From positions 2,714-62,686 of the IMG/VR virus record IMGVR_UViG_3300030109_000199: a stretch of 59,973 nt of DNA. One strand, given 5' to 3'. This document shows, in pieces, positions 6,178 to 36,773 of the stretch. The DNA is from a virus. Numbering within the stretch: position 1 is the first letter of the stretch; each line of letters begins with the position of its first letter. The notes under the pieces are model-generated. The model had not been told where the DNA came from. It did not search any database and was given only the letters and a program-made list of their open reading frames with translations. The position numbers and the translations under genes are program-made.

Positions 6178-6836
6178 TACGTTGATCCCTTTATAAGAGT
6201 ATCAGGACCACCAGCAGGACTAGCATTAACAGCCATATCATCCTGTCTAGTCCTACGTGCCTGATTACGCAAAGCATTAATATGATACTGATATTGAGCC
6301 TCCCATAATTGAGTAGCTGTAGCATCTTTCATAAACAAACAAGTCTCTACCATACAGGCAGAGAACAAAGCATCATAACAAAAATCTGTAAAGTAATTTG
6401 AAGTTGTACCAGTAGAGGTAAGAGTAGTTGGTCTAACCACTGTCATAATCTCACCATTATGTGTAGATGCTGGAGTGGGAGCAATCCTTATCTCGGTATT
6501 ACCTCTATAAGCATAATAGATTGGAGCACTCGTACTAGCACTGACAGGCCAGAAGTCATTCACAAACTCCATTGTACGCAATAACATATTCTTCCTTGAC
6601 CCATCTTGAGTCATGGAGAAATTCCTAACGATACGAGTACCACTAGGAATTGTAACAATAGCCTTACCTGATGCGATTGCTATAGATGTATATACGGTCA
6701 ACCCATGATCGTCTAAGTCAGTAGTAAGTTTATTTTCTGCCTTATTAACAATCTTTGGTAATTGTTCTGCAAATTCCGTACCATCATTCTCTGCCGTATT
6801 TTTTACATCCGTAATCAAATAATCATAATCAGGCAT
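6177..6836 (-). CDS. Phage adaptor / head-tail connector protein, 219 aa
   Basis: The N-terminal helix MPDYDYLITDVKNTAENDG is followed by AEQLPKIVNKAENKLTTDLDDHGL, a beta-rich centre (VTIPSGTRIVRNFSM, PIYYAYRGNTEIRIAPTP) and C-terminal helices with the conserved-looking LWEAQYQYHINALRNQARR. This is the architecture of podovirus adaptor proteins related to P22 gp4 or T7 gp11 that dock on the portal ring. It lies just downstream of the capsid gene in transcription order. Two adaptor-like genes in one genome (this and 2265-2939) suggest a two-ring connector. Confidence 0.65.
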   Translation of the reverse strand: MPDYDYLITDVKNTAENDGTEFAEQLPKIVNKAENKLTTDLDDHGLTVYTSIAIASGKAIVTIPSGTRIVRNFSMTQDGSRKNMLLRTMEFVNDFWPVSASTSAPIYYAYRGNTEIRIAPTPASTHNGEIMTVVRPTTLTSTGTTSNYFTDFCYDALFSACMVETCLFMKDATATQLWEAQYQYHINALRNQARRTRQDDMAVNASPAGGPDTLIKGST

Positions 6837-15869: not shown

Positions 15870-16020
15870 ATATCTTGATATGACGGATTTAAAAGTTAAC
15901 ATGATGAACCCCTCATTATTTGCTCCATATGTGTCACCCCCCTTTTATATATATACATACGCACCCGTTTTTACGCCCCCCCGTGCTATGCATAGCGAGG
16001 CAAAGTCTATGATTTCTCTA
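15870..16020. promoter_or_regulatory. Non-coding control region with palindrome at 15985-15996
   Basis: No gene fits here. It holds a weak promoter-like pair (TTGATA at 15875, TAACAT at 15897, 16-base spacer), C-rich runs near 15947 and 15975, and the perfect palindrome GCTATGCATAGC at 15985-15996, a candidate operator or origin-associated site. Confidence 0.4.
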
Positions 16021-16082
16021 GTATCTCTTTAGAGTATCTTAGTAGTGAGTTCTTACGAACTACTTAGATACTCTAGAGATAC
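16021..16082 (+). ncRNA. Leader hairpin 1 (TTACG/CTTAG family)
   Basis: A long hairpin forms: GTATCTCT pairs with AGAGATAC outside, and AGAGTATCTTAGTAGT pairs with ACTACTTAGATACTCT inside with one mismatch. The apex contains GAGTTCTTACGAAC, the same apical sequence as hairpins at 16618, 17098 and 18393. There is no U tract, so it is not an intrinsic terminator. Confidence 0.7.
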
Positions 16083-16097
16083 AGAGAGATTCTCTGG

Positions 16098-16340
16098 AGC
16101 CAAGCTGATGAAGTCTGGTAAGCTCATAGAGCTTGGCTGTAGTGGCAACACTTTCAGCCAGTCACCAGACCTACTTAGTTCTACTAAGTAGTTGACATCT
16201 TTGACAAAAGTCATAGATCAAGACAGAGCCTCTCGGCCTTGGATTTGATGAGATGACAATGCATCAACAAGGTTGATGATGAGATGTCTTGATGAAACCT
16301 ATATATCTCTTACGGTCTTGAACGTAGTGAAAGACCTTAG
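16098..16340 (+). ncRNA. Structured leader RNA with possible pseudoknot
   Basis: About 240 bases before the first early gene hold nested and crossing complementary segments. AGCCAAGCT (16098) pairs with AGCTTGGCT (16130). GTCTGGT (16113) pairs with ACCAGAC (16164). Their order is interleaved, which is the geometry of a pseudoknot. Inside lies AGTG-GCAA-CACT with a GNRA tetraloop. CTACTTAG/CTAAGTAG (16171-16191) and CATCAAC/GTTGATG (16262-16278) are two further perfect hairpins. There is no open frame of note. It is probably a regulatory 5' leader or a separate small RNA. Confidence 0.6.
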
Positions 16341-16346
16341 AGATAT
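16303..16346 (+). ncRNA. Leader hairpin 2 (TTACG/CTTAG family)
   Basis: ATATCTCT pairs with AGAGATAT and GGTCTT pairs with AAGACC, separated by the family's internal loop (TAC opposite TT). The apex is GAACGTAGTGA. The ribosome site AAGGAG of the 16361 gene begins right after the stem. It is nearly the same as the hairpin at 20513-20560, with compensatory changes in the inner stem (GGTCTT/AAGACC versus GGTATT/AATACC). Confidence 0.75.
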
Positions 16347-16360
16347 TTAAGGAGATTGTT

Positions 16361-16603
16361 ATGGAATGCAGCCAAGGTTCTGGAATGACTCTTACCGCTA
16401 AAGCGGTTTCTGAAATCGACAAGTACGAGTCTTGTCACTGTGAAAACTACTTCCATCACTTGGAAGAGATCGAAGAGAATCTTCTTGAAGCTGTTAAGAT
16501 TGGTCGGTTTACCTACGGTAAGCAGGTTAATCGGAAGATGCTTCTAGAGGAGCTAGAGGCTTTGTTGGATAGTGCCATATTACAATATGGCAAAGAGATT
16601 TAA
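16361..16603 (+). CDS. Early hypothetical protein, 80 aa
   Basis: The first gene of the rightward unit has AAGGAG 12 bases upstream of its ATG. The sequence has a C-x-C pair (ESCHCENYFHHLEEIEENLLE), then mostly acidic helices (KMLLEELEALLDSAILQYGKEI). The Cys/His cluster (CHCENYFHH) could bind a metal. Early position and small size suggest a host-takeover role, but I do not recognise it. Confidence 0.75.
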   Translation: MECSQGSGMTLTAKAVSEIDKYESCHCENYFHHLEEIEENLLEAVKIGRFTYGKQVNRKMLLEELEALLDSAILQYGKEI

Positions 16604-16617
16604 GGCTTGACACTTAG

Positions 16618-16662
16618 GGTTACTTACGTGATGTGAGTTCTTACGAACATCACTTAGTAACC
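16618..16662 (+). ncRNA. Leader hairpin 3 (TTACG/CTTAG family)
   Basis: GGTTAC pairs with GTAACC and GTGATGT pairs with ACATCAC, with TTAC opposite TTA between the stems and an apical GAGTTCTTACGA. It lies between the stop of the 16361 gene and the GAGG ribosome site of the 16683 gene. Confidence 0.75.
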
Positions 16663-16682
16663 TTTACAGAGTAGAGGATGCC

Positions 16683-17011: not shown

Positions 17012-17114
17012 TCTTTTGATCTTTGCAAAGTTCGTCATAGTCTGGCCTTTGTTGTTCTCGGCAACATGGGCTGGACTAGTCGTTTTGTTCCACTATCTAG
17101 ATACTCTTACGTGA
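16992..17114 (+). CDS. Small single-pass membrane peptide, 40 aa
   Basis: An ATG inside the end of the previous gene opens a 40-codon frame that is almost entirely hydrophobic (LLIFAKFVIVWPLLFSATWAGLVVLF). The last codons lie within the next leader hairpin. There is no clear ribosome site, so translation would rely on coupling. It fits the set of tiny membrane peptides in this genome (18309, 20440, 33269). Confidence 0.4.
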   Translation: MHTIFTDLLIFAKFVIVWPLLFSATWAGLVVLFHYLDTLT

Positions 17115-17147
17115 TGTGAGTTCTTACGAACATCACTTAGAGTTTCT
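17098..17147 (+). ncRNA. Leader hairpin 4 (TTACG/CTTAG family)
   Basis: AGATACTC pairs with GAGTTTCT (one mismatch), and GTGATGT pairs with ACATCAC, with the TTAC/TTA internal loop and GAGTTCTTACGA apex. Its inner stem and loop are identical to hairpin 3, while its outer stem has a different sequence. It is followed by AAAGGAGG of the 17167 gene. Confidence 0.75.
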
Positions 17148-17166
17148 TATAATAAAGGAGGCCATC

Positions 17167-17382
17167 ATGGCTGTTAAATTTCAATCTTTCGATGTTAAAA
17201 CTGGCAAGTGGACTGCTCACCAGAGCAAAGGTGATACAGCCAAGCGGGCAGGTGATGCTGGTCGGCCAGTTCGGGTTGTCCATGCCAACGGTAGTTGGAA
17301 GGTCATCAAGAATGCCGATGCTTTGCCTGCTACTTTGGCAACGTCTTTCGTTGCTGGTCGTGACGTAGTCACTACTGCCTAA
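17167..17382 (+). CDS. Early hypothetical protein, 71 aa
   Basis: ATG at 17167 is chosen because AAAGGAGG lies 5-8 bases upstream. Upstream in-frame starts fall inside the leader hairpin. The product begins MAVKFQSFDVKTGKWTAHQ, is Lys/Arg/Val-rich and has a VRVVHANGSWKVIKNAD core that looks like a small beta-barrel. GC is higher than in the surroundings. It heads the first copy of the RNA module, and the covarying hairpin starts four bases after its stop. Confidence 0.75.
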   Translation: MAVKFQSFDVKTGKWTAHQSKGDTAKRAGDAGRPVRVVHANGSWKVIKNADALPATLATSFVAGRDVVTTA

Positions 17383-17386
17383 GACT

Positions 17387-17438
17387 TATGTCTTTGTGGG
17401 GTAGACAGTTTAGGCTGTCTGCTTCACACAAGGACATA
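17387..17438 (+). ncRNA. Module hairpin A: stem-GG/TTCA-stem
   Basis: A 12-pair outer stem (TATGTCTTTGTG with CACAAGGACATA, one G-T pair) and an 8-pair inner stem (GTAGACAG with CTGTCTGC, one G-T pair) flank an asymmetric internal loop: GG on the left, TTCA on the right. The apex is TTTAGG. The same plan, with compensatory base changes, recurs at 18635-18682. Confidence 0.75.
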
Positions 17439-17443
17439 TAAAA

Positions 17444-17461
17444 GGTCTAATGCATTAGACC
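17444..17461. repeat. Perfect 18-base palindrome
   Basis: GGTCTAATGCATTAGACC is its own reverse complement. It could be a short RNA hairpin (seven pairs, four-base loop) between module hairpin A and the tRNA-like domain, or a protein-binding site. No U tract follows. Confidence 0.6.
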
Positions 17462-17537
17462 TTGAGGGTAAACGAAGTTTAAGAGTGATGGGGTATCAAA
17501 TCGTCATCGTCTATGCTGGACTATAGCTTTTAAACTT

Positions 17538-17620
17538 TGCAAGTTAGGCCAACCATGACTTGGTAGAGTTGGATCGTAGACGTATGATGTTTGTAGGTTC
17601 AAATCCTACCCTAATTTGCA
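17538..17620 (+). ncRNA. tRNA-like domain A, non-canonical
   Basis: The 3' half has a textbook T arm (GTAGG-TTCAAAT-CCTAC, 17593-17609). The D-like stem is CCAAC/GTTGG with a loop containing TTGGTAGA. The anticodon-like stem is ATCGT/ATGAT with only six loop bases (AGACGT). The closing stem TGCAAGTTAGG with CCTAATTTGCA has 11 pairs instead of 7. The 3' end reads CC after the stem. The six-base loop without U33, the long acceptor and the missing 8-9 linker argue against a decoding tRNA. Confidence 0.6.
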
Positions 17621-17636
17621 CCCTCTAATTTATTTA

Positions 17637-17756
17637 ACACCGTAAAAAGCGGCAAAGTATCTCTCCTGCTTTGTCTATGGTGAAGCATGACGGCAGAGTG
17701 CAAGGCAATAGAGACCGATGTTGCCCCATAGGAGCAAGGAGACCTGCAACTCCATA
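17637..17756 (+). ncRNA. Structured segment after tRNA-like domain A
   Basis: Paired elements in order: CACC/GGTG enclosing GCAAAG/CTTTGT (17638-17682), then GGCAA/TTGCC (17704-17725), then GGAG/CTCC (17731-17752). There is no open reading frame. It ends before the GGAG ribosome site of the 17790 gene. It could be the 3' domain of one long RNA with the preceding elements. Confidence 0.45.
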
Positions 17757-17789
17757 ATAATTAAAGGCGGCATTTGAGGAGTTAAGTCT

Positions 17790-18008
17790 ATGACAAGTAT
17801 ATTACGCCTTAAAGGCATCTCGAATCACGGTAAGAACCGTGTTAGAGAACATGGAGAACTGTGGAAAGTTACAGCACATAGTTCAAAGACCCATGTTATG
17901 AGGTTGAATGAGATATTCATTGAATCTTTGGAGACAGGGGATTTACGTTGGGTAAATCCTTGGAAAGATCGTAACTTTGAAGTGGAGGTAGTATCTAATG
18001 GAAAATAA
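17790..18008 (+). CDS. Early hypothetical protein, 72 aa
   Basis: ATG is preceded by GAGGAG. The protein begins MTSILRLKGISNHGKNRVREHG, with a KVTAHSSKTHVMRLNEIFIESLE centre and a DLRWVNPWKDRNFEVEVV end. It is basic with beta-strand tendency. It overlaps the next gene by 11 bases, which implies coupled translation. No family is recognised. Confidence 0.7.
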   Translation: MTSILRLKGISNHGKNRVREHGELWKVTAHSSKTHVMRLNEIFIESLETGDLRWVNPWKDRNFEVEVVSNGK

Positions 18009-18300
18009 AGAATTGGTGCCAGAGATTGATCTAAACAATGTCTCTGTTGAGTATCATGGATGGAAAATTTCCATTGCCGATCATAAAGAGCCTCGCAAAA
18101 GTAAAGGACATCCACGTTATGTGGTCAGAGAGGTTGCAATCTGGCATCTGGATGAGGAAAGCCCACATAGTAATATACTTATTGTTGGTAGCTTTGGACA
18201 GGATTTGTCTGGCTTAATTGGTGTATTGGACCGGGCTAAAAACTACATTGACCATGTAAATGGTTGGGAAAAAAGCTGGGAAGATGCACAAGAGGCATAG
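17998..18300 (+). CDS. Early hypothetical protein, 100 aa
   Basis: GGAGG precedes the ATG within the end of the previous gene. The product begins MENKELVPEIDLNNVSVEYHGWKISIADH and contains YVVREVAIWHLDEESPHSNILIVGSFGQDLSG, then a helical tail. The pattern is of a small alpha/beta protein. I do not recognise the family. The overlap with 17790-18008 makes the two a likely functional pair. Confidence 0.7.
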   Translation: MENKELVPEIDLNNVSVEYHGWKISIADHKEPRKSKGHPRYVVREVAIWHLDEESPHSNILIVGSFGQDLSGLIGVLDRAKNYIDHVNGWEKSWEDAQEA

Positions 18301-18308
18301 GAGAAACT

Positions 18309-18395
18309 ATGTATCAAGATAACGAGAAGTTCTACAGTGATCTCAAGATGATCCTGTTTATCGTAGGTTGTTTCACAATCCTGTTGTTAATCTAG
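18309..18395 (+). CDS. Tiny membrane peptide, 28 aa
   Basis: ATG with GGAGA five bases upstream opens a 28-codon frame: a polar N-terminus (MYQDNEKFYSDLK) followed by one membrane helix (MILFIVGCFTILLLI). The stop lies at the base of the next leader hairpin. It is real if the ribosome site is used. The function is unknown. Confidence 0.5.
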   Translation: MYQDNEKFYSDLKMILFIVGCFTILLLI

Positions 18396-18443
18396 ATACT
18401 CTTACGTAGTGTGAGTTCTTACGAACACTACTTAGAGTATCTT
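18393..18443 (+). ncRNA. Leader hairpin 5 (TTACG/CTTAG family)
   Basis: TAGATACTC pairs with GAGTATCTTA and GTAGTGT pairs with ACACTAC, with the TTAC/TTA internal loop and GAGTTCTTACGA apex. Compared with hairpin 4, the inner stem has compensatory changes (GTGATGT/ACATCAC to GTAGTGT/ACACTAC). AAGGAGG of the 18467 gene follows. Confidence 0.8.
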
Positions 18444-18466
18444 ATATAAGGAGGGCTGGAAAGCTC

Positions 18467-18634
18467 ATGGTTAAATATATTTATCGGAAGCGTTTAAAGA
18501 AAACCCGTTATGGTTTTGGTCGTGGTTCTAAATCTTTCCAAATTCATTTCGGGAAACGATCTTTGTACTTGTTCATGCCGTTCTACAGCATGAGCCGTCT
18601 ATCAGACAAGCAAGGGTTTGTTACCGTTGCCTAG
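18467..18634 (+). CDS. Early basic protein, 55 aa
   Basis: The frame begins MVKYIYRKRLKKTRYGFGRG and is followed by SFQIHFGKRSLYLFMPFYS. It is strongly basic and aromatic, so it may bind nucleic acid. AAGGAGG lies about 13 bases upstream. It heads the second copy of the RNA module: leader hairpin, small gene, GG/TTCA hairpin, tRNA-like domain, structured segment. No sequence similarity to the 17167 gene product is obvious. Confidence 0.7.
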   Translation: MVKYIYRKRLKKTRYGFGRGSKSFQIHFGKRSLYLFMPFYSMSRLSDKQGFVTVA

Positions 18635-18682
18635 TCTTTTTATGGGGCAGATATCTTAGGGTATCTGCTTCACATAAAAAGA
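18635..18682 (+). ncRNA. Module hairpin B: stem-GG/TTCA-stem
   Basis: A 10-pair outer stem (TCTTTTTATG with CATAAAAAGA) and a 7-pair inner stem (GCAGATA with TATCTGC) flank the same GG/TTCA internal loop as module hairpin A. The apex is TCTTAGGG. Outer stems differ from copy A by paired changes (GTG/CAC versus ATG/CAT), and inner stems differ likewise, which supports a conserved RNA fold. Confidence 0.75.
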
Positions 18683-18687
18683 TTTAC

Positions 18688-18779
18688 GAGAGGCATGGCT
18701 AGGTTAATACAGTGTCCCTAAAACACTGTAGGTCTATTAGGGTAGGCTAACGCAGGGTTCAATTCCCTGCCCTTTCACC
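18688..18779 (+). ncRNA. tRNA-like domain B, type II-like, non-canonical
   Basis: The T arm is GCAGGG-TTCAATT-CCCTGC (18752-18770). The acceptor-like stem is GAGAGG (18688) with CCTTTC (18771), then A and CC. A variable-arm-like stem GTCTA/TAGGC lies at 18732-18747. The anticodon-like arm is ACAGTGT-CCCTAAA-ACACTGT: seven pairs and a seven-base loop with CTA in anticodon position but C instead of U at position 33. No D stem can be formed. It is therefore not a normal tRNA. Confidence 0.55.
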
Positions 18780-18792
18780 TTTTTCTTGAACG

Positions 18793-18957
18793 TGCCCTGT
18801 AGCAAGGGCTAGTCAGCAGACCCACTGCGATGATGAGAAGTGAGATAGCACTCACAAACAAAGGACTCACACTGGATAGTGTCGGCTGTTGGGGTCGTTA
18901 GAGGGGGTGCGAGAGTACCCTAGCGAGAAAGGGATTTAGAAATCGTGTTCCCCTCAC
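18793..18957 (+). ncRNA. Structured segment after tRNA-like domain B
   Basis: There are many short perfect hairpins: GCCCT/AGGGC (18793-18809), GTGAG/CTCAC (18840-18855), ACACT-GGAT-AGTGT (18869-18882) and GGGTGC-GAGA-GTACCC with a GNRA loop (18905-18920). GACCC (18819) pairs with GGGTC (18892), and GAGG (18901) may pair with CCTC (18952). The 3' end reads CTCACCA. There is no open frame. Confidence 0.5.
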
Positions 18958-18986
18958 CAATTTAACTTTGTCAAAGGATAAAAGCT

Positions 18987-20439: not shown

Positions 20440-20508
20440 ATGTACAATAATATATTATTGTTTAGTTTACTCTTTACATTATTACTATGTGGGAGTATTG
20501 TTTGGTAA
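20440..20508 (+). CDS. Possible 22-aa membrane peptide
   Basis: The short frame MYNNILLFSLLFTLLLCGSIVW is a single hydrophobic helix with an L-L-L-C-G-S end that resembles a lipobox. The ribosome site is weak, so translation is uncertain. It ends just before leader hairpin 6. Confidence 0.3.
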   Translation: MYNNILLFSLLFTLLLCGSIVW

Positions 20509-20512
20509 ACCT

Positions 20513-20560
20513 ATATATCTCTTACGGTATTGAACGTAGTGAAATACCTTAGAGATATAT
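20513..20560 (+). ncRNA. Leader hairpin 6 (TTACG/CTTAG family)
   Basis: ATATATCTCT pairs with AGAGATATAT and GGTATT pairs with AATACC around the TAC/TT internal loop, with apex GAACGTAGTGA. It is almost identical to hairpin 2, except for a compensatory C-to-A/G-to-T pair in the inner stem. AGAAGGAG of the 20578 gene follows. Confidence 0.8.
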
Positions 20561-20577
20561 AAGAGAAGGAGAATGAT

Positions 20578-33703: not shown

Positions 33704-34498
33704 ATGTATCAAAGACAACCAACGATTTATATTGGCTACGATGCTAAAGAACATTTAGCTTTTGAAACATTAGTTAAGTCTATTGAACTTACATCTTCAG
33801 TAAAAAACTTAAACATTGTAAAGCTAGATCAGGATGCACTTAGGTCTGCTGGATTGTATCGTAGAGCATGGACTACCAGCCCTGACAATAGAAATCAAAA
33901 GATTGATCTTAATGATGGTAAACCTTTTTCTACTGACTTTAGCTTTACAAGGTTTTTAATCCCTCATCTCAATCAGTATGAAGGTAAAGCAATCTTTATG
34001 GATTGTGATATGTTAGTGCGGTCAGATATTATGGAAGTCTTTAACCGATACACTAACGATGTCCATGCAGTTTCCTGTGTGTGGCATAAGTACCAACCTA
34101 ACAATACAACTAAAATGGATAACCAAGCACAGGAAACATACTCTATGAAGAACTGGTCTAGCTTTATGTTGTGGAATTGTGGACATAAAGCTAACCTTAA
34201 TCTTACAGTAGATGATGTTAATACTAAGTCAGGGTATTGGCTCCATAACTTTAAGTGGTTAGATGGTTGGGCGCATGGGAGAATGACACAATTTCCTATT
34301 GGAGAAATTAATGAAGAGTGGAATTGGTTAGACCATCACTCATCTGAAACCATTGAACCCAAGAATGTACACTTTACTACAGGTGGACCTTGGTTTGATA
34401 ACTGGTCAGCATCTCGTGATGTAGATATCAAATACGCTACAGAGTGGAGTGCAATGAAAGATAAGATTACAATGGAAGAAGGACTATCTAATGTATAA
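33704..34498 (+). CDS. Glycosyltransferase, GT8-like
   Basis: The 264-residue protein has IYIGYDAKEHLAFETLVKSIELTS, SFTRFLIPHLNQYEGKAIFMDCDMLVRSDI (D-x-D motif for metal and sugar nucleotide), SFMLWNCGHKANL and a C-terminal WNWLDHHSSETIEPKNVHFTTGGPWFDNW. These fit the nucleotide-sugar glycosyltransferase fold of GT8 type. It probably adds sugar to a phage or host surface molecule or to modified DNA. It overlaps the large multidomain gene by eight bases, so the two likely work together. Confidence 0.8.
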   Translation: MYQRQPTIYIGYDAKEHLAFETLVKSIELTSSVKNLNIVKLDQDALRSAGLYRRAWTTSPDNRNQKIDLNDGKPFSTDFSFTRFLIPHLNQYEGKAIFMDCDMLVRSDIMEVFNRYTNDVHAVSCVWHKYQPNNTTKMDNQAQETYSMKNWSSFMLWNCGHKANLNLTVDDVNTKSGYWLHNFKWLDGWAHGRMTQFPIGEINEEWNWLDHHSSETIEPKNVHFTTGGPWFDNWSASRDVDIKYATEWSAMKDKITMEEGLSNV

Positions 34499-36773
34499 CT
34501 TCGTAACCTCTATGAATGAGGATGGTTTAAAACTTTATGGCATGAAGATGCTTGAGACTGCTGCCCGATATTGGAAAGAACCTCTTAAACTTACGGTGTA
34601 TTATCATGACTTTGATTTGGACAAGCATGACGTACCCCATCCTCCTCACATAGAATACCGTAATCTTAATCTACTCACAGAGATGACTGCCTTTAGAGAA
34701 ACCTTTAAAGAACATGATGGTACTGAAGATGGTAAGATAGATTATAATTTTAGACTAGATGCTATAAAGTTTTGTCATAAAGTCTTTGCTTTAACAGAGT
34801 TTGCTTTTGAATTAGCTGAAGATAGTCGTGATCCTGGTTGGTGTATCTGGTTGGATGCAGATACCTTTACTAAGAAAGAATTTAATGCAACAGATTTAGA
34901 TAAATTTCTTAACCCTAAAGCAGAGTTAGCTTTCTTAGGTAGGAAACATTTTGATTATAGTGAAACATCCTTTATGGGTTTCAATCTTAAGTATCGTGGA
35001 GCATTAGACTTACTAGGTGATCTCCGTGGGGCTTATAACTCTGGTGAAGTTTTGAACTACCGTGAATGGCACGATGGCTTTATCTTTGAAAGACTGTTAA
35101 CTATCTACCGTGCTCATGGTATGAGGGTACAAGATTTCACAGGACATTTGGACATCAAAGATTTAGTAAAGGGTAAGCAAGCTTTTGAATCTTTTCCGCT
35201 TAGTGATTTTATGGAGCATCTTAAGGGTGATCGTAAATCAAAAGTAAAAGGTAAACCTATTCCTCCAGCCCAACGCTATAAACAACTAGCAGATATTATT
35301 CGTCAGTACCAGCCAGCTAAGGTAGTAGAGACTGGTACATGGATAGGGCAACGTGCTATCGAAATGGCCTTAGCTTCCTTTGAGAATAGAGATGACTTCC
35401 ACTATATAGGGCATGACCTTTTTGAAGAGGGTAATGAAGAGTTAAGTATCAAAGAACTTAATGCTAAACGGATTGTATCGGTAGAAGATATTACTAAACA
35501 TCTTAATGAGTTCAAAGATAAGATGAAAGAGAAAGATAAAATCTTTACCTTTGAACTAATAAAAGGAGATACAAATCAAACACTACAAGATAATATAGAT
35601 GCAGACCTAGCTTATATTGATGGTGGACATAGTACAGTAACAGTTCAAAATGATTATAATAAACTTAAGCATATTCCTGTAGTGGTCTTTGATGATTTCT
35701 TTACGGCTGATAAAGATGGTAACTGTGTAGAACCTGAGTTTCAAGAAGTAAATAGAATCATGGAACAGACAACTCACCGTAAGTATGTGCTGCCATCTAG
35801 TGATGGGGTACGTGAGGGAGGGTTTACTCACCTAGCAGTTATGCTAACTGATCCTGATATCCCAGACTTAACCAATAAGGTAATGCAAGTTCCTATTCAT
35901 GTTACTCCTAAAGACTGTGTACCTGATCAGAACCTAGTAAGTAATATTAAAAAGAATATTAAATTGATGGATAACTGGTTGGAAAAAGGAAGAGCACATT
36001 CTGATAGAGTTATTATTGTATCAGGAGGAAGTAGTACAGACTGGGATCATGTAAAAAAATTAAGCCGACAAGATAATACTCGTGTAGTCTGTGTTAAACA
36101 TTCATACCCTCATCTCCTTAAACACGGCATTCAACCGTGGGGATGTGTTATACTAGACCCTAGACCCCTAAGTGGTAAGTCTACTCATGGGGTTATTCGT
36201 AAAACTTTATTCAATAAGGTAGATAAAAATACTATATTCTTCTTAGCATCCATGACTAATCCTTCAGTGACAAGGCTTCTTAAGAAACAAGGAGCTAATC
36301 TATGGGGATGGCACGCATTCTCTGATACTCTACGGTCAGAAGGAGACAAAAATAAACCAGTGTTAGATAATACAATTAATGTTTCAAATGAATTTAATAT
36401 ACCATCTGATACTACATTTATTACGGGTGGAACCTGTGCAGCTATGAGAGCTATAGGTATGATGCACGTACTAGGCTTTAGAACCTTTGATCTTTTTGGT
36501 TATGACTGTATTGTACCAGAGCCTAGTGCTAAAGATAAAACTAAAAAGGAGAGAGATGGTAGACCTAAGTGGATGAATGTTACGGTGGATGACCATAAGT
36601 TCTGGACTACAGGAGAACTACTAGCTATGGCACAAGACTGTGAAAAACTCTTTGAGCGTGATGATGTAGATATGGATATCACTGTACATGGAGAGAATAC
36701 TTTAGTGAGTACACTATGGGAGAAGTCCCGTATGAGTAAAGTTAAAAGTTATAAGGAGTTTTTACCATGTTAG
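34491..36773 (+). CDS. Three-domain protein: glycosyltransferase, methyltransferase, DUF115
   Basis: The 760 residues fall into three parts. Residues 1-240 resemble a nucleotide-sugar transferase (YNFVTSMNEDGLKLYG, CIWLDADTF with D-x-D near 121). Residues 260-430 form a class I methyltransferase (AKVVETGTWIGQRAIEMAL as SAM loop, YIDGGHSTVTVQNDYNKL near 374). Residues 490-720 match DUF115/MptE-like Rossmann proteins (RVIIVSGGSSTDWDHV near 505, TFITGGTCAAMRAIGMMHVLGFRTFDLFGYDC near 642). Bacterial DUF115 proteins can glycosylate flagellin with nonulosonic acids. The fusion could build a methylated glycan on virion or host. Confidence 0.75.
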   Translation: MYNFVTSMNEDGLKLYGMKMLETAARYWKEPLKLTVYYHDFDLDKHDVPHPPHIEYRNLNLLTEMTAFRETFKEHDGTEDGKIDYNFRLDAIKFCHKVFALTEFAFELAEDSRDPGWCIWLDADTFTKKEFNATDLDKFLNPKAELAFLGRKHFDYSETSFMGFNLKYRGALDLLGDLRGAYNSGEVLNYREWHDGFIFERLLTIYRAHGMRVQDFTGHLDIKDLVKGKQAFESFPLSDFMEHLKGDRKSKVKGKPIPPAQRYKQLADIIRQYQPAKVVETGTWIGQRAIEMALASFENRDDFHYIGHDLFEEGNEELSIKELNAKRIVSVEDITKHLNEFKDKMKEKDKIFTFELIKGDTNQTLQDNIDADLAYIDGGHSTVTVQNDYNKLKHIPVVVFDDFFTADKDGNCVEPEFQEVNRIMEQTTHRKYVLPSSDGVREGGFTHLAVMLTDPDIPDLTNKVMQVPIHVTPKDCVPDQNLVSNIKKNIKLMDNWLEKGRAHSDRVIIVSGGSSTDWDHVKKLSRQDNTRVVCVKHSYPHLLKHGIQPWGCVILDPRPLSGKSTHGVIRKTLFNKVDKNTIFFLASMTNPSVTRLLKKQGANLWGWHAFSDTLRSEGDKNKPVLDNTINVSNEFNIPSDTTFITGGTCAAMRAIGMMHVLGFRTFDLFGYDCIVPEPSAKDKTKKERDGRPKWMNVTVDDHKFWTTGELLAMAQDCEKLFERDDVDMDITVHGENTLVSTLWEKSRMSKVKSYKEFLPC

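Follow-up and report, generated by a model that had tools for sequence, protein, structure and literature searches.

A tRNA-like RNA element with kissing loops recurs between genes of marine phages and may serve as a punctuation signal

The phage DNA analysed here, a stretch of 59,973 nucleotides (the window) that is most of a 62.7-kb virus record, carries a widespread new RNA, and this RNA is a tRNA-like element with kissing loops, not the GG/UUCA hairpin that the first-pass annotation had put forward. The element is present in about a dozen contigs of marine phages and is very probably a genuine RNA family, most suitably classed as a new kind of tRNA-like structure; literature searches, incomplete in their coverage, found no such kissing tRNA-like element. 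The annotation had described a duplicated module of leader hairpin, short gene, post-stop hairpin, tRNA-like domain and further structured segment, and both blocks do lie in that order and at the positions given. Judging from sequence, we think it quite possible, if somewhat short of probable, that RNA punctuation units lie here between early phage genes, each with an RNase P cut and a hairpin protecting the 3' end of the upstream mRNA.

The virus and the region

The terminase, portal, primase/helicase, DNA polymerase and ribonucleotide reductase match phage families, the nearest matches of the DNA polymerase being those of Pelagibacter phages HTVC103P, HTVC104P and HTVC115P (44% identity). 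Genes run leftward up to 15.7 kb, and from near 16 kb there is a rightward early region with many small genes. No relative of the stretch at the DNA level was found among 50,697 phage records, and relatives (contigs numbered L004, L006 and so on below) were gathered from IMG/VR by terminase and small-protein searches. One early protein of 760 aa (window 34491-36773) has no significant PHROG match. A noncoding, structured-looking segment of about 250 nt with repeated TGATGA motifs (window 16090-16345) precedes the gene at 16361; its conservation is 75-94% in several of the close relatives and 68% in L020 and L110.

Structure of the element

18688..18779, + strand: kissing-loop tRNA-like element of block 2, called tRNA-Pyl(CUA) by ARAGORN
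18716..18721, + strand: kissing strand A, CCCUAA, in the loop of hairpin 1
18737..18742, + strand: kissing strand B, UUAGGG, the loop of hairpin 2
18752..18770, + strand: T-arm GCAGGG-UUCAAUU-CCCUGC, followed by the acceptor 3' strand and ACC (18771-18779)

The plan of the element is an acceptor stem, GG in the linker at the place of the D-arm, hairpin 1 (sometimes with an inserted domain), hairpin 2 and a T-arm. The T-arm has 6 bp and a UUCRAUU loop, and together with an acceptor of 6 bp it gives a stack of 12 bp, the length found in tRNA, divided 6+6 and not 7+5; the exception is L202, with a 4-bp acceptor. The first base is G in all elements and the preceding base is mostly a pyrimidine. 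The 3' ACC is present in all but L081 and L195, and most elements end in ACC-U and not ACCA. Inserts in hairpin 1 are highly variable from one element to another.

Among the canonical features of tRNA, the T-arm and acceptor are kept in all elements and ACC in most, but in the window element the D-stem is absent, and the loop CCCUAAA has no U33 and is paired with UUAGGG. The features of an RNase P substrate (12-bp acceptor/T stack, T-loop, 3' RCC and unpaired 5' leader) are present except for the stack in L202 and the ACC in L081 and L195. Rfam searches, in both gathering and E-value modes, gave nothing relevant for the element or related loci, in agreement with the earlier suggestion of an undescribed system; with the tmRNA model (RF00023) only the 17-nt T-arm aligned, at 11.1 bits against a cutoff of 47.

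Pairing of the loops and spread of the element

The loop at the anticodon position is the complement of that in the following hairpin, with CCCUAA/UUAGGG in the window, UCUCAC/GUGAGA in L081 and UUACAG/CUGUAA in L004. For a test independent of the loops, these were left out of the query and IMG/VR was searched by T-arm sequence alone. The first T-arm pattern found ten stretches, all with the kissing architecture, and a looser one found twelve, including one new member (L202) and two true tRNA-Glu genes that are useful negatives. In 11 of 11 elements tested an exact 6-nt partner of the second loop lies inside the same element, while foreign loops, taken from other elements, were matched in 1 of 102 cases (chance expectation 0.17 matches). 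There are eight distinct kissing pairings, with changes on both sides at every kissing pair; L193/L196 and L075/L197 are possible near-duplicates, and L006 has the same pair as the window. Because automatic alignment of all elements misplaced the inserts, pairs were counted by hand alignment, a count that is partly circular for the stems, and the loop-partner test is the cleaner of the two. The first pattern had no match in 85,000 prokaryote genomes, and in searches with the elements as queries only the T-arm stretch matched, mostly in annotated tRNAs.

The ARAGORN call of tRNA-Pyl with CUA, and the TAG that ends the P55 gene just upstream, could be taken to mean that 18688-18779 is a UAG suppressor tRNA for readthrough of that stop. 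We reject this on the covariation of the kissing loops and regard it as extremely improbable: the 'anticodon' is not conserved (CUA in the window and L006, CAC in L081, which is called tRNA-Val, none called in others) and is in every case the complement of the next loop, the D-arm is missing, and a 1-nt apex insertion in L006 and L011 shifts the frame behind the stop.

Position of the element

In nearly all cases the element lies between a stop and the next gene. It follows a separate stable structure in the window (the GG/UUCA hairpin, 3 nt before the start at 18688), in L192 (a leader-type hairpin, 4 nt before), in L081 (an H-type pseudoknot, 6 nt before) and in L191, while in L193, L194 and L197 it lies 7-17 nt behind the stop with no strong hairpin between them. 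L004 has about 120 nt of other RNA between hairpin and element. The next ATG is 18-28 nt downstream in L191, L192, L194 and L199; the nearest called upstream frame is 500 nt away in L195 and 100 nt away in L202. The L081 element is a clean 92-nt insertion behind the pseudoknot, and L077 has the pseudoknot without the element.

Post-stop hairpins and their genes

17167..17382, + strand: gene P71, 71 aa, 'NGSWKVIKNADALP' family, TAA stop included
17387..17438, + strand: post-stop GG/UUCA hairpin, copy 1, from fold, pair counts and homologues
18467..18634, + strand: gene P55, 55 aa, basic, 'HFGKRSLYL' family, TAG stop included
18633..18684, + strand: post-stop GG/UUCA hairpin, copy 2, overlapping the P55 stop codon

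Both hairpins lie exactly where the annotation had placed them and consist of 12 bp, the GG/UUCA internal loop, 9 bp and a tetraloop, with folding z-scores against shuffles of -8.3 (copy 1) and -7.0 (copy 2). Over five distinct homologues 103 of 103 cells are paired. Both sides have changed in 6 of the 21 pairs, which 13 of 500 shuffles equalled, and the covariation score was equalled by none of the 500, so that the selection for RNA structure earlier proposed from compensatory changes is borne out.

The first-pass annotation had made its case depend on homologous hairpins in related phages, and these were found by a descriptor scan, a DNA pattern scan of viral contigs and a covariance model run on 90 loci and 34 whole records. 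Ten copies were counted in seven contigs, of which the window is one, and no genome has more than two; all lie immediately 3' of a stop, which is always that of a P71-type or P55/P62 gene. They are confined to one narrow clade of close relatives. In L019, which is a little more distant, the two-helix design is kept, nearly every upper pair is replaced and the internal loop is GU/GCUA; this and the pair statistics indicate that the architecture is under selection and that GG/UUCA is only a feature of the clade. The invariance claimed for GG/TTCA thus applies within the close clade and not to L019.

An intrinsic terminator was ruled out, as none was called at either hairpin, and no U-run lies directly behind the stem. 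The stop-adjacent hairpin also brought to mind an integron attC-like site, but no attC consensus was seen by eye. A coupling between the apex CUUAGGG of the hairpin and the element loop CCCUAA was rejected, since the apex is changed and the loop kept in L006, and the apex is kept and the loop changed in L004.

Pfam and PHROG gave no significant family for P71 or P55, and the fold predicted for P71, at modest confidence, had no credible match in a PDB comparison. The two proteins were rightly said not to be obviously alike, and one hairpin is shared by two unrelated proteins. The RNA hairpin is nevertheless not the conserved part: both protein families extend well beyond the hairpin-bearing relatives, the hairpin is found only in close relatives, and the sequence behind it is swapped. 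In L008 (3683-4000) and L009 (6001-6390) P71 and P55-like genes stand side by side in one operon that has no GG/UUCA hairpin, which suggests that the two blocks arose after the P71 and P55 genes became separated.

Segments behind the hairpins

17439..17537, + strand: variable structured RNA from the hairpin to the tRNA-like domain, replaced in relatives
17538..17622, + strand: block 1 tRNA-like domain, from sequence and folding (z -3.2)
17625..17775, + strand: structured segment common to the window and block 1 of L006, from sequence comparison
18682..18686, + strand: left ATTTA, at one boundary of a 278-nt segment that L011 lacks
18780..18959, + strand: distal structured segment of block 2, with homologues in L006 and L123 and the 3' end CCCCUC-ACCA
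18960..18964, + strand: right ATTTA at the boundary of the same segment

Each block has a tRNA-like domain and a further structured segment, as first described, but neither tRNA-like domain is a copy of the other and the two distal segments have no mutual similarity by blastn. The block 1 domain has a 10-bp acceptor, a D-like arm with GG, a short hairpin at the anticodon position, a T-arm and a 3' ACC, and its stack is 15 bp. Although it folds well it is the weaker case, because it has no kissing partner and no relatives of it were found.

What lies behind the block 1 hairpin varies. It is RNA in the window and also in L006, where the RNA differs in part; L004 has an open frame of 93 aa at this place and L007 a gene homologous to that at 16361. 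In block 2 of L011 the hairpin is followed directly by the next gene, where the window has an extra 278-nt segment that comprises the tRNA-like element and the distal structured RNA and is flanked by ATTTA repeats. The homologue of the distal RNA in L123 occurs without the GG/UUCA hairpin and without the tRNA-like element. Block 1 of L006 has at 6275-6460 a 10-bp hairpin with loop UCUUGAC, closely followed by the exact complement GUCAAGA; here a kissing or pseudoknot RNA of another kind takes the place of the window's block 1 domain.

Leader hairpins

16014..16087, + strand: leader-type hairpin, first copy of the GTGAGTTCTTACGAAC element, inverted repeat I1
16612..16668, + strand: leader hairpin preceding gene 16683, repeat family D1
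17095..17151, + strand: leader hairpin of block 1, folding z -3.9
18390..18446, + strand: leader hairpin of block 2, folding z -5.0

The leader hairpin is a separate element, commonly found at the 5' side of early genes across many marine phages. Its assignment to a two-copy module has to be given up, as GTGAGTTCTTACGAAC is present four times within 16-18.4 kb and leader-type hairpins occur in 40 loci. Related leader segments are at about 16295-16351 and at 20507-20563, the latter a 95% copy of the former. The architecture is an outer stem, a bulge (GUGA, GUAGA, GUAA or GUGAA) and then an apex hairpin, GUUC-UUAC-GAAC or similar. A scan gave 76 sites with 55 distinct cores in the 40 loci and none in the shuffled set, a count that is biased because some of the loci had been gathered using the inner core, although pairing of the outer stem is unaffected by this. 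The sites lie a median of 29 nt upstream of an SD-preceded ATG.

Function of the element

What has to be explained is a set of conserved RNA structures that covary, keep their position and are gained or lost as units. The determinants for bacterial RNase P are a 12-bp acceptor/T stack, a T-loop, a G start and a 3' ACC end. In the punctuation that we propose, a stable RNA structure at or just behind the stop (here the GG/UUCA hairpin) is followed by the tRNA-like element, and host RNase P would cut 5' of the acceptor G. The upstream mRNA would then end just behind its own hairpin and be protected from 3' exonucleases, and the downstream RNA would start with a base-paired 5' monophosphate and be protected from 5'-end-dependent decay, so that both products would be stabilised. 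The kiss may keep the anticodon position out of reach and hold the RNA in the shape of a tRNA, and the element could thus be processed like a tRNA while unable to decode. Leader hairpins would do a similar job at 5' ends. A more specific proposal, held more tentatively, is that marine phages have a new class of kiss-locked, tRNA-shaped RNAs that act in cis as RNase P signals between genes, coupled to a 3'-protecting structure.

Punctuation of this kind is supported by the 12-bp stack, G start, 3' ACC, location from stop to gene and nearby 5' structures, by the loop-partner test, own against foreign, by the eight covarying pairings and by the clean insertion in L081. RNase P cuts tRNA-like structures, pre-tmRNA, phage C4 and M3 RNA and some mRNAs (PMC11143913), and an RCCA end drives its cleavage of a pseudoknot substrate (PMC12710915). 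Against punctuation, L193, L194 and L197 have no strong hairpin from stop to element, and neither the spacer RNA of about 120 nt in L004 nor the 180-nt structured RNA behind the window element is needed for plain punctuation. The prevailing ACC-U ends, the 6+6 split and the 15-bp stack of the block 1 domain also go against it. The kissing loops are not required for RNase P, and the element may therefore have another function.

Such a function could be in trans, with a tRNA mimic released during infection binding a host factor (RNase P, EF-Tu, or a tRNA-modifying or tRNA-cutting defence enzyme) and the hairpin only marking the mRNA end. That the tRNA elbow and acceptor are kept with the decoding loop hidden by the kiss, that the element is gained or lost as a unit and that extra structured RNA is attached to it in the window would all fit, but it is embedded in operons with the next ATG close behind in several phages, it has no promoter of its own above shuffles and its hairpin 1 inserts are very variable; we think this rather unlikely. 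We also think it unlikely that the structures are static mRNA stabilisers or exonuclease road-blocks, like T7 RNase III sites or exonuclease-resistant RNAs, with the kissing fold blocking degradation and RNase P not involved. Compactness of the kissing folds, leader hairpins before early genes in many phages and several kinds of post-stop structure at the same place are in its favour, but it leaves the retention of a tRNA acceptor, T-loop, G1 and 3' ACC unexplained.

The differing cargo behind the hairpin, and the ATTTA repeats at the boundaries of the 278-nt segment that L011 lacks, would also be accounted for if the hairpin were a recombination or insertion junction around which genes and RNA cargo are swapped, the 278-nt RNA being a small mobile element. 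This is improbable: no recombinase or transposase is known for the unit, a repeat of 5 nt counts for little, a deletion between the repeats would account for L011 just as well, and the compensatory changes indicate a function as RNA. Should the RNase P punctuation reading hold, ARAGORN will in some cases have mistaken tRNA mimics of marine phages for tRNAs (such as 'tRNA-Pyl'), phage operons would have messages cut by the host's tRNA maturation enzyme, and the kissing-loop element, a compact RNA fold with strong covariation, would be a simple way to set both message ends.

Relation to known systems

The arrangement resembles the tRNA punctuation of mitochondria (RNase P/RNase Z) in having tRNA-shaped elements between genes of an operon, but here they are phage tRNA mimics with the decoding loop hidden, and their cleavage is putative. 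Plant virus tRNA-like structures (TYMV, BMV) likewise combine an acceptor/T-arm mimic with long-range pairing foreign to tRNA, and RNase P cleaves that of TYMV; these are 3' genome ends with a pseudoknotted acceptor, whereas ours are internal in DNA phages, with an ordinary acceptor and kissing loops. In T7, RNase III sites that are internal-loop hairpins between early genes separate and stabilise the mRNAs. Internal-loop hairpins between early genes are found here too, a likeness in layout, and unlike the T7 sites the leaders have in common a conserved bulge of the GUGA type and a UUAC apex.

C4 antisense RNA of phages P1 and P7 is an RNase P substrate (PMC5320573, PMC11143913) and, like the kissing element, a small phage RNA of similar size with two loop-bearing stems, its acceptor-like stem being cut by RNase P. 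The C4 loops pair with a target mRNA and those of the element with each other, and the Rfam C4 covariance model had no match in the window or related loci. Theta (HDV-like) ribozymes adjoin phage tRNAs (PMC10879173) and are similar in being phage RNAs tied to tRNA processing beside a tRNA-like sequence; in contrast the kissing element itself mimics tRNA, and Rfam reported no HDV-like ribozyme in the loci scanned.

Other post-stop RNAs

H-type pseudoknot: L081 rc 5484, L112 rc 6057, L077 rc 6278, L153 3703, L155 399, L165 (after P62)
RNA of about 100 nt with a GCCUUCACUAGAAAU loop: L103 13287, L118 2675, L180 2651, L183-L185 2651, L137, L112, L038

The short H-type pseudoknot, for example AAAUC-CU-AGGCA-U-GAUUU-AAAAC-UGCCU, is another post-stop RNA, found 3' of P62, P55 or P71 homologues in marine phages. 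Its stem 1 covaries (AAAUC/GAUUU, AUAUC/GAUAU, CAUC/GAUG) and its third loop is A-rich. The RNA of about 100 nt, unmatched in Rfam when L103, L112 and L118 were scanned, has a pseudoknot (for example GGGCG..CGCCC with CCAG/CUGG), a AAAAUUAAGAC linker and a 3' hairpin with a covarying stem and the loop GCCUUCACUAGAAAU, and is often right behind P71 homologues.
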